Below are positions 6,194 through 24,716 of a DNA stretch of 64,000 bases, in pieces (within the stretch, counting starts at the first letter, position 1; the number at the start of each line of letters is the position of its first letter). A model generated the notes under the pieces. The model had not been told where the DNA came from, made no database searches, and saw nothing but the letters and a program-made list of their open reading frames with translations. Source of the DNA: Rhodospirillaceae bacterium SYSU D60007 (GTDB lineage: Bacteria > Pseudomonadota > Alphaproteobacteria > Reyranellales > Reyranellaceae). The position numbers were made by a program, and so were the translations under genes. The stretch is taken from NCBI GenBank assembly GCA_003574685.1, contig QOCQ01000010.1, positions 1 through 64,000 of the forward strand. The letters are read 5' to 3'.

Positions 6194-7294
6194 TCACTTC
6201 TTCTCGGGCCAGTAATAGTTGGCGCCGGCCTCATAGGGCGGGATCACGAACCGGCGTGCCGGCACCACTTGCGAGGCATAGGCGCGCTGCGACTCGTAAA
6301 CCTTCTTGAAGAAGGGATTCTTCTCCGCCTCTGCCCTGGCGATCTGGTCCCACGCTTCCAGCGTTTTCCTCAGGATGTCCTCGGGCGTGCGTTCGATCTT
6401 GACGCCGTGCTTTTCGCGCAATTCCTTTAATGCCTCGGCATTGAGCTTGTTACTGATTGTCTGCGAGCGGAATGTCGCTTCCCAGCTCGCAGCCCTGATA
6501 ATTGCCTGAAGATCAGGTGTCAGATTCTTCCACACGTCGGCGTTGATGAGCAGCTCCAGGACTGTGGCAGGCTCATGGGTGGAGGGCATGTAGTAGTGCT
6601 TCCACACGGTCTGGAAGCCGACTTTCATGTCCTCGGCGGGCCCGACCCATTCGCCGCACTCGATCACGCCGCGCTCGGCAGCCGGCACAATCTCGCCGCC
6701 CGGCATGTTGACGGTGGCCATGCCCGACTTGCTGAACACCTCGGCGGTAATTCCTGTCTCTCGACACTTGCGCCCTTTGAGGTCCTCCCAGCTCGTGATC
6801 GGGCGCTTGAACCAGCCCAATACCTGGTTGGCAACAGAGGTGAGGGGAATGGGCACCACGTCGCGCTTGAGCTGATCCTGATAGAGCTCGCGATAGAGCT
6901 CAAGGCCGCCGCCATCATAGAGCCAACCCATGTAGTCGATCATGTCCATGCCGAACGGTCCGCCGGGAGCCGGGCCGAACAGTGTCGCGGCGCGCTGCTT
7001 GCCCACCCAGTAGGCAGGGGCGGTATGGCCGCCATCAATGACCTTCTTGTGCACCGCGTCGAGCACCTCAAAGGCCGGGACGATGGCGCCGGCGGGCGCC
7101 AGCTCGATGTCGAGGCGCCCGGCTGACATGACCTTCACCCGGTCCGCCCAGTACTTGAAGTTCTCGAAGATCAGGCCGGAAGGGGGGAAGCTCGACTGAA
7201 AGCGAAGCTTTTGGGGCGCTTGCGCCACCGCGGGCGGAGCGTGGACGAAGAGGGCAGCCAGGGCAGCCGCCAAAGCAAAACCAGGGACTCGCAT
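6194..7294 (-). CDS. TRAP transporter substrate-binding protein, DctP family
   Basis: Periplasmic binding protein of a tripartite ATP-independent transporter, 366 aa. Signal peptide MRVPGFALAAAL...AVAQ. The DctP core includes LRFQSSFPPSG, VLDAVHKKVIDGGH, and the conserved block MPGGEIVPAAERGVIECGEWVGPAEDMKVGF that carries the ligand-facing Arg/Glu and resembles TakP-like 2-oxoacid binders; that ligand is inference. No DctQ or DctM membrane gene is adjacent, so this is an orphan binding protein or serves a distant transporter. It converges with napC. Confidence 0.88.
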   Translation of the reverse strand: MRVPGFALAAALAALFVHAPPAVAQAPQKLRFQSSFPPSGLIFENFKYWADRVKVMSAGRLDIELAPAGAIVPAFEVLDAVHKKVIDGGHTAPAYWVGKQRAATLFGPAPGGPFGMDMIDYMGWLYDGGGLELYRELYQDQLKRDVVPIPLTSVANQVLGWFKRPITSWEDLKGRKCRETGITAEVFSKSGMATVNMPGGEIVPAAERGVIECGEWVGPAEDMKVGFQTVWKHYYMPSTHEPATVLELLINADVWKNLTPDLQAIIRAASWEATFRSQTISNKLNAEALKELREKHGVKIERTPEDILRKTLEAWDQIARAEAEKNPFFKKVYESQRAYASQVVPARRFVIPPYEAGANYYWPEKK

Positions 7295-17780: not shown

Positions 17781-17905
17781 GTCGTCCTGAGCGCAGCGAA
17801 GGACCTTGCGATGGCTCGGTCAGAGAACGCCGGCACTGGTGATTCACCAGCACAATCGTGCACGGATCGGACGACCGCAAGGTCCTTCGCTTCGCTCAGG
17901 ACGAC
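17781..17905. repeat. 125-bp inverted-terminus element, copy 1
   Basis: Left arm 17781-17810 (GTCGTCCTGAGCGCAGCGAA...) and right arm 17876-17905 are inverted copies with a single mismatch over 30 bp. The whole is exactly as long as the copy at 23347-23471. It sits between the channel gene and the ThDP enzyme gene. MITE-like in form but without a visible coding capacity. Confidence 0.8.
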
Positions 17906-23288: not shown

Positions 23289-23346
23289 GCGGGTTATTGA
23301 CTTGTCATAATACCTTTGTATACATTGATCGCATCTGAAGATTCCT

Positions 23347-23471: not shown

Positions 23472-23484
23472 AGGGAGGAAGGCA

Positions 23485-23689
23485 CCTGTCTTCATCCGTC
23501 TCCAATCTGTCTCCGGGTTCTCCGCCCGTCTCCACCGGTCTCAACGTGTCTCCCATCTGTCCAACCTGTCTCCACCTGTCTCAACGTGTCTCCCATCTGT
23601 CCAACCTGTCTCCACCTGTCTTCACCTGTCTCCACCTGTCTCCACCTGTCTCCACCTGTCTCCACCTGTCTCAACCTGTCTCCGCCAGG
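23485..23689. repeat. 10-bp tandem-repeat array with a 40-bp higher-order duplication
   Basis: About 20 units of a 10-bp motif, consensus ACCTGTCTCC, with early units more divergent and the last ones (23621-23670) nearly identical. A perfect 40-bp tandem duplication sits inside it: 23541-23580 equals 23581-23620. Units at 23621-23670 are perfect except one TT for TC. The selenoprotein gene on the minus strand ends inside the array (stop 23671-23673), so the array is also its 3' end. No spacers, so not a CRISPR. Confidence 0.9.
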
Positions 23690-24546
23690 CGGCGGTCTTC
23701 TTCAGTCTGGTATTGCGGGGAGGTGTCGCGGGGCATGCGGGTGTCGAGGCCGCGGGTGGAGGCCGCCGCCGCGCGCCAGGTGTCATCCGGCCAGTGTGCG
23801 TCCAGCCGGAGGATGTCGCCGGGCGTCGCCATCTGCTCGAAGGCCTGGAGCGCTGCCCGCACGATCCGCGTCTGGTCGGCGGGATCGAACGGCTTGCCGG
23901 TGCTGTGGCCCAGGGGATAGTCGACGAAGATGCTGCGCGGCGGCGCGCCGGCGTGCAGGATGTCGAGCGCGCTGCCGAGGCAGAGCGTGGGAATGCCCCG
24001 CGCTTCGAGATGCCGTGCTGCCAGACTCACGGTCTGGTGGCAGACGGGTCACATCGGCACGAGCAGCGCGATATCGACCGCCTGCTGCCGGAACACCGCC
24101 TCGACCTGGGGGATCAGCTCTTCGCGCACGCGCCGCTGCGAATAGATGCCGCCCATGCACGAGATCGCCTCGTCCGCCAGCGGGCCGGCCACACCGTCGC
24201 TGCGCAGGCGGCGCAACGCGCCCAGAGGCACGAGGCATTCGGGATCGCGCCGCGCATCCTCCAGGTAGTTCTCGGTGATGTGGGCGAAGCGCAGCCGGTC
24301 GGCAGGGGTATCGACGGGAATGCGCCGGATAGAGGTGTCGTCCTTGTAATGATAGGCGACCTGTCCCGCGACATAGCACCCGGACGTCGTGAGCAGGCCC
24401 AGCCGCGATTCCGCGACCGGCTTCTTCAGCGGCGTGAAGGGCGGCGGCGCATCGGCCACGAACCAGCGATAGGGCGCATAGCCGAGGCTGGCATAGCGCT
24501 GCGTGATGGCTTCGATGTAGCGGACAGGTTCGTGCGGTTGCGCCAT
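23671..24546 (-). CDS. GrdB-like selenoprotein (in-frame UGA, UxxC)
   Basis: 291 aa if the TGA at 24049-24051 is read as selenocysteine 166. Family: glycine/sarcosine/betaine reductase selenoprotein B-like. Before the TGA: MAQPHEPVRYIEAI, TTSGCYVAGQVAYH, DISLLVPM-type strand (DIALLVPM). After it: PVCHQTVSLAARHLE, giving U-P-V-C, then GIPTLCLGSA, DYPLGHSTGKPFDPADQ, and a family-like end PQYQTEEDRRLAE. Both sides lie in one frame without other stops. A hairpin fitting bacterial SECIS rules starts right after the TGA (24013-24048). Start ATG 24546 has AGGGAG upstream. Ordinary gene callers will split it at the TGA. Biochemical role in proteobacteria is unknown; classic GrdB handles reductive deamination. 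SelA/B/D genes are not in the window. Confidence 0.8.
24013..24051 (-). promoter_or_regulatory. Candidate bacterial SECIS element
   Basis: Read on the minus strand, TGA (24051-24049) is followed after 17 nt by an apical loop CGTGA (24031-24027), held by stem CCAGAC/GTCTGG (24037-24032 with 24026-24021). Below an internal CCA the stem continues CTG/CAG and, past one bulged C, CCGT/ACGG. Loop G at position 2 and the 17-nt distance meet the published consensus for bacterial SECIS (16-37 nt to the loop, a G among the first two loop bases). SelB binding is inference. Confidence 0.75.
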
Positions 24547-24716
24547 GGTCTCACTCCCTTTGTCCGGCGAATAGCGCGGCCTCGTGCCAACGGCAACGCC
24601 ACCGCCTTGCGCTCGCAACGCATTTCCTTCCTGAGAGATCGGAACATCGCCGGCATCACCCCGTTGCGGCGAGGGGATGCAGTCAGCTTCTCGTCAGCTT
24701 CAAGGGAGGTCTTGTG

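Follow-up and report, generated by a model that had tools for sequence, protein, structure and literature searches.

A predicted PrdB-like selenoprotein with an in-frame UGA and a bacterial SECIS-type hairpin in a genome of the Reyranellaceae

The window (the whole 64,000-nt stretch of DNA that was analysed) carries on its minus strand a PrdB-like gene that runs from an ATG at 24546 to a TGA stop at 23673−23671 and forms one 291-residue frame when an internal TGA is read as selenocysteine (Sec). Under the standard code (table 11) the same gene gives two open frames of 189 and 119 codons, and such a gene and its paralogues are easily missed or shortened in annotation. The original prediction had described two same-frame ORFs split by this single TGA; its coordinates and residue number were correct, and the strand, on which it was silent, is the minus strand. 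The predicted Sec lies in the context LVPMUPVCHQT, and the UxxC motif that had been read across the TGA as M-U-P-V-C is seen in the translated 291-residue frame. A GGGAG stretch resembling a ribosome-binding site, read directly from the sequence, is located 7 nt 5′ of the ATG (Table 1). The stop codon of the gene falls inside the edge of a tandem array at 23483−23683, consisting of ~20 copies of the 10-base unit CACCTGTCTC. A 38-base inverted repeat is found at 23344−23381 and 23437−23474 (95% complementary, 55 nt apart); since its core recurs as a second inverted pair at 17786−17806 and 17880−17900, it resembles a dispersed palindromic repeat.

Table 1. Positions in the window of the predicted selenoprotein gene and its associated features
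Feature	Position	Strand	Basis or remark
Predicted PrdB/GrdB-like selenoprotein gene, 291 codons + TGA stop	23671..24546	−	Sec at 166
In-frame TGA, predicted to be read as Sec, residue 166	24049..24051	−	TGA or Cys codon in 27/27 relatives and 40/40 fetched copies
Candidate bacterial SECIS hairpin: stem of six pairs, CGTGA loop at 24031−24027	24021..24037	−	Fold, alignment, pair counts
Hairpin with two lower pairs (24041−24040 with 24018−24017)	24017..24041	−	Standard in 25/25 Sec forms, consensus register
Cys169 codon, Cys partner of Sec in the UxxC redox pair	24040..24042	−	Invariant in 29-row alignment
GGGAG, ribosome-binding-site-like stretch	24554..24558	−	Direct reading

Comparison with curated models placed the protein in the PrdB/GrdB superfamily, with a significant profile match extending over the Sec site. 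Among NCBIfam models the PrdB model TIGR04483 ranked first (118.5 bits, E 3.1e-34, residues 34−248 against model positions 17−230 of 238), short of its equivalog cut-off of 300 bits. GrdF and GrdH followed with less than 30 bits each, and the best GrdB-type model scored 28.6 bits (cut-off 800). Pfam PF07355 (GRDB) did not match the window protein at E 0.01 and weakly matched 24 of the 29 aligned family members (E up to 0.01). A PDB sequence search returned no match at E up to 1. The label "GrdB-like" in the original prediction therefore stands at the level of the superfamily, and is better replaced by "PrdB-like" because the closest curated model, albeit matched below its cut-off, is PrdB; the PrdB partner subunit PrdA was not found.

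Clostridial PrdB is homologous over nearly the whole TIGR04483 model and has Sec at the same place, followed by Cys three residues on and then His, although its motif reads UGTCHRS instead of UPVCHQT and the window protein has a C-terminal extension, with neither PrdA nor prd genes found. The clostridial and enterococcal PrdB records listed show 27.6−29.5% identity over 71−76% of the query. Homology to GrdB, the selenoprotein B of glycine/sarcosine/betaine reductase (PF07355), is weak and concerns the C-terminal part of GrdB, and the window protein has 291 residues compared to ~430 in the GrdB models. Two proteins of Haematobacter and Roseomonas (WP_035710215.1 and WP_207415257.1; 37−39% identical over 87−89% of the query), annotated as "glycine/sarcosine/betaine reductase selenoprotein B family protein", both carry Cys at the site and lie closest to paralogue B of the genome (tree rows L143 and L144).

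The codon at residue 166 was compared in 27 relatives found by a scan of genome contigs with six search peptides, one of which spans the site in its Cys reading and five of which do not. The codon was TGA in 23 relatives and TGC or TGT in the other 4, giving Sec or Cys in 27 of 27, and TGA was kept down to ~52% identity with the second halves intact, in agreement with the earlier suggestion that the two halves fit one family. Among 40 further copies, selected by form from the class and order listings (one of them, L102, being the same copy as L033), the 20 listed without TGA, one of them with a TAG inside the matched stretch, all had Cys, and each of the 20 listed with TGA did have TGA at the site. 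The genome itself contains two more Sec-form paralogues (37% and 35% identical; three copies in total) with TGA at the same site, and the UxxC pair and the HQT context were invariant in 29 aligned rows. These data bear on the reading of the TGA as a true stop, arising from a nonsense mutation, from a sequencing error in a decaying gene or from a boundary between two small proteins. Both frames being open by table 11 is what such a stop would give; against it stand the intact second halves of the TGA-containing relatives, the occurrence of Cys at exactly that codon in the other four, the TGA site shared by the two paralogues and a hairpin that covaries and is lost in the Cys forms (see below), which together leave a true stop with a close to negligible probability.

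A quick tree of 104 copies (115 rows less 11 identical ones, the short row L106 having been removed earlier), labelled by the best-matching query, grouped the A rows, those like the window gene (n = 39), with 99% branch support and separated the D rows, which bear a UPxCTRA-like motif (n = 12), by a branch with 100% support; labels B, C and E did not form single clades. The tree implied 11 switches between Sec and Cys, a figure derived from a quick tree with long branches and carrying no direction of switch. Clostridial PrdB was placed on a branch of 1.86, and its position is unsure. In one genome of the same genus (L101), one full and apparently partial copies of the window gene occur at 6437−7738, 12927−13469 and 13830−14924, within 9 kb, as if recently duplicated.

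In bacterial SECIS elements, as modelled, the UGA is closely followed by a hairpin whose loop has a G at its start. The hairpin CCAGAC-CGTGA-GTCTGG at 24037−24021 on the minus strand, with 17 nt from TGA to loop and a G as loop position 2, matches this model, and its loop and coordinates had been given correctly in the original prediction. Folding of the single sequence was moderately unusual (z −2.2 to −2.4), with 5 or 6 of 200 shuffles folding equally well; in longer stretches the best fold paired the lower part of the hairpin differently, and Rfam at the gathering threshold matched nothing anywhere in the window. The comparison of homologues gave a clearer signal. In an alignment of 25 of the 26 TGA rows (L037, a near-copy of L036, was left out), where covariation was assessed by counting pairs, the nine named pairs were standard in 97.8% of cells. 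Two stem pairs were changed on both sides: C15-G31 to U-A in 9 sequences, a swap that is synonymous in a His codon and turns a Val into Ile, and G18-C28 to A-U in 2 sequences. Sliding one side of the stem by 1−3 columns lowered the pairing to 21−39% in the same 25 Sec forms.

The Cys forms provided a second comparison. Among 103 distinct copies (the 104 tree rows minus the clostridial PrdB L142, dropped by the motif filter), all six stem pairs were present in 68 of 79 Sec forms and in none of the 24 Cys forms; pairs were counted at a single fixed register, which may undercount shifted stems. Five pairs were found in a further 10 and four in 1 of the 79 Sec forms, and five in 2 of the 24 Cys forms. 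Many Cys forms have nearly the same residues encoded by different codons. At codon 9, Ser was encoded by AGT in 44 of 49 Sec forms, in contrast to 47 of 774 Ser codons in the same genes (background codons taken up to ~300 bases either side); in the Cys forms with Ser at this position (n = 9) AGT was never used, TCG or AGC taking its place. Many of the rows behind these stem and codon counts are related and do not represent independent events. What raises the predicted SECIS hairpin above chance is the covariation of two stem pairs, together with the absence of the intact stem from the Cys forms.

The complete set of genes for Sec insertion was found in the genome of the window (5.34 Mb, 99.81% complete), in which the window lies on contig C2 and the sel genes on contig C7. 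All four components scored above their cut-offs: selA (TIGR00474, 566.8 bits; cut-off 267.9), selB (TIGR00475, 450 bits; cut-off 242), tRNA-Sec (RF01852, 75.6 bits; gathering threshold 47), also called by ARAGORN as tRNA-SeC with anticodon tca, and a SelD domain (284 bits; cut-off 125) in the second half of a 741-residue protein. On C7, fdhE, selA, selB and the tRNA-Sec gene follow each other on one strand. At L017 12804−15029, SelD is fused behind a pyridine nucleotide-disulfide oxidoreductase domain (TIGR03169), and this gene adjoins the sel operon on the other strand. The original prediction had named two findings that would speak against a selenoprotein, a genome without selB or tRNA-Sec and homologues in which the TGA position is not conserved as Sec or Cys; both genes are present and the position is conserved, so that the sequence data support the predicted selenoprotein.

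Occurrence of the Sec form followed that of selB across genomes. In a class sample of 385 genomes, the family (E 1e-15) was detected in 51, of which 38 had at least one TGA form and 13 had none among the matches listed, with up to 6 candidates scored per genome so that some copies may be missed; the 13 include a genome with an N-terminal piece lacking the site (G303) and one with a TAG in its match (G145). SelB (E 1e-60, up to 3 candidates scored per genome) was found, among the matches listed, in 35 of the 38 TGA-form genomes as against 0 of the 13 with only other forms, and in 20 of the 334 genomes without a family match. The association between Sec form and selB had a Fisher p of 1.2e-9, relatedness being ignored. 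The three TGA-form genomes of the class sample without selB over the threshold were G086 (77% complete), G337 and G386; a laxer search gave a partial match below the cut-off in G337 (188.6 bits) and, in G086 and G386, scores resembling those of other GTPases of the window's genome. Within the order, where up to 32 candidates were scored per genome, 74 of 76 genomes carried the family and 72 carried selB. Three of them (G017, G033 and G043) had TGA forms and no selB over the threshold, G043 yielding a C-terminal selB fragment in the laxer search, while G020 had selB without a family match and G001 had neither. The subfamily of the window gene itself (>460 bits) was restricted to 8 of the 76 order genomes, with one TGA each. 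Distant TGA members were located less than 10 kb from selB on the same contig in ten genomes (G267, G269, G359, G128, G176, G109, G334, G413, G141 and G281), those examined being D-type, which suggests that such distant genes may travel together with the Sec machinery. The joint variation of Sec form, Cys form, hairpin and selB over hundreds of genomes amounts to a natural experiment on recoding.

Taken together, the data make it highly probable that the product of the gene is a selenoprotein belonging to the PrdB/GrdB superfamily, a degree of confidence that does not extend to the reaction catalysed. Decoding of the TGA at codon 166 would proceed through the downstream hairpin, which would recruit SelB with Sec-tRNA, the latter made by the genome's own SelA, SelD and tRNA-Sec; comparative data strongly support this predicted route.

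The family has been met before in metagenomes. In the GOS survey, "Proline reductase PrdB" (pfam07355) is listed as a UxxC family counting 235 sequences with Sec and 110 with Cys (PMC2398784), and the Sargasso Sea survey lists a PrdB family with 42 Sec sequences (PMC1088965); in both, "PrdB" is an abundant UxxC selenoprotein family, found in many water samples (PMC1088965, PMC2398784). The UxxC motif and the coexistence of Sec and Cys versions (PMC2398784, PMC1088965) are shared with the window gene's family, and the survey proteins are very likely of the same kind, a likeness drawn from the published descriptions. Given the GOS and Sargasso Sea listings and the annotated Cys-form relatives, the window gene is a new sequence within an already described PrdB-like selenoprotein family. 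Open-licence literature contained no report joining PrdB selenoproteins, proteobacteria and UGA, and none linking "reductase selenoprotein B family" with selenocysteine; in that on Reyranella and selenoproteins, none concerned this gene as judged by title.

By its name the survey family implies D-proline reductase, yet no partner subunit turned up in the window's genome. A genuine PrdB subunit, converting D-proline to 5-aminovalerate together with PrdA, would explain why PrdB is the best curated model and would fit the family with such a motif that the surveys list (PMC1088965, PMC2398784), but the match stops far under the equivalog cut-off and the UPVCHQT motif departs from the clostridial one. 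PrdA had no match in this nearly complete genome in a search that gave 976 bits in a Terrisporobacter plasmid; an earlier PrdA search of the genome had likewise given no match, though no control was scored there. None of 40 other stretches (the window, the loci of the 27 relatives with their flanks and 12 further loci) matched the plasmid's PrdA, PrdD or component B protein, whereas the plasmid's PrdB matched 41 of 41 stretches. Three family copies in one genome likewise argue against this function, which we consider very improbable. D-proline reductase in its known form does not seem to be present in this genome, and because PrdA was not found the enzyme is most likely not a D-proline reductase. 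A family that ranks in the earlier surveys among the commoner selenoproteins of sea water bears a "proline reductase" name that misfits a genome with no PrdA match.

For the PrdB-like selenoprotein, analogy with PrdB and GrdB suggests a mechanism in which the Sec-x-x-Cys pair would form the active site and the Sec selenol would attack the substrate as a nucleophile. Cys169 would resolve the intermediate, and the enzyme would be re-reduced by a glutaredoxin, a thioredoxin or another small thiol protein and would act without the pyruvoyl subunit PrdA. We give the scheme of nucleophilic Sec, resolution by Cys169 and reduction by a small thiol protein slightly less than an even chance. Tandem genes for PrdB-like selenoproteins, an E-type copy with a UPLD motif followed by a UPVC copy, were observed in three genomes of the same taxonomic family, at L095 6340−8430, L094 772−2756 and L096 3545−5605; the E-type copies have Asp at the position of Cys169. 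A frame with a YTTPLCxPC motif follows each pair; in L095 it lies directly behind the pair and was identified as glutaredoxin (PF00462, 51.2 bits), and the frames in L094 and L096 are alike by reading. The link of glutaredoxin to the window gene is indirect since the tandem pairs are paralogues of it.

The same neighbours are compatible with a general thiol-disulfide or peroxide-type antioxidant selenoenzyme performing no bond-cleavage chemistry. The UxxC pair, the glutaredoxin-like neighbour in three relatives and a 3-mercaptopyruvate sulfurtransferase-like gene (below cut-off) upstream in L021 and L100 would all suit such an enzyme. However, only PrdB and GrdB types, and no thioredoxin-like model, matched among the models searched, and the Asp that takes the place of the second Cys in the UPLD tandem paralogue is ill-suited to a simple dithiol mechanism; an antioxidant role is unlikely, though it retains appreciable weight. 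Clustering of 247 frames from 30 loci revealed no conserved neighbour of the window gene: one large cluster was the family gene, a second (9 loci) consisted seemingly of its antisense frames, and the others covered at most 4 loci. Only some close relatives have a sulfurtransferase-like gene and a gene for a peptide-type transport protein next to the family gene.

Reductive cleavage of a C-X or C-N bond, as in dehalogenation, with a small carboxylic acid or an amine as substrate, is suggested by analogy with FarB, a GrdB-like protein of fluoroacetate-reducing Synergistota whose Sec is proposed to attack the C-F bond (PMC10838667). The predicted Sec at the GrdB/PrdB site would agree with such chemistry, as would two genes for CrcB fluoride channels that adjoin the sel genes; the CrcB genes, however, are on C7 and the window gene on C2, with no known link between them. 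Fluoride channels are common. Moreover, FarB is proposed to act together with FarE, a relative of GrdE (PMC10838667), and the flanks tested yielded no relative of component B; bond cleavage of this kind is considered improbable for the window protein.

According to a 2006 survey, the then-known Sec-decoding Alpha- and Betaproteobacteria had a selA-selB-selC operon located by fdhA, which encoded the sole selenoprotein (PMC1794560). In the window's genome no formate dehydrogenase alpha subunit was detected over the cut-off (best 125.2 bits); the search found an inner stop in 0 of 15 matches, and 1 of 14 control genomes exceeded the cut-off. Formate dehydrogenase was for this reason rejected as the main selenoprotein of this genome. 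FdhE, the gamma subunit (TIGR01583, 174.5 bits; cut-off 115.85) and the C-terminal half of the beta subunit (TIGR01582 positions 145−282 of 283) remain beside selA, the half beta subunit being followed by two CrcB genes. At L017 10644−12774 the formate dehydrogenase operon is without the alpha and half of the beta subunit, and the two CrcB fluoride channel genes are there instead.

Ten sel loci of relatives were compared. A Sec alpha subunit was present in 3 of the 10 (L145, L152 and L154, with 1523, 1430 and 1438 bits for TIGR01553; cut-off 814), including L145 from a genome of the same genus. In another 4 (L148, L149, L150 and L151) the neighbourhood of selA gave no match to the beta or gamma subunit or to FdhE, and in the remaining 3 (L146, L147 and L153) the contig end was reached or no call was made. 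Since the alpha subunit is lost here and kept in L145, the sel genes seem to have outlived the neighbouring selenium formate dehydrogenase, a case in which the Sec machinery seems to have outlasted its adjacent selenoenzyme, and the PrdB-like proteins seem to be at least part of what the sel genes serve. The PrdB-like family is multiplied and nearly universal in the taxonomic family of the window's genome (74 of 75 genomes). The Proteobacteria carrying this branch presumably include aerobes. A broader interpretation, in which a PrdA-independent selenoenzyme family of Proteobacteria, misnamed proline reductase, keeps the Sec code alive in place of formate dehydrogenase, is one we hold only tentatively and consider somewhat less probable than its negation. 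At another locus (L098 6416−7183), a D-type PrdB-like selenoprotein gene is directly preceded by a gene for a protein of AhpC/TSA type, whose in-frame TGA falls in a UPYC motif.
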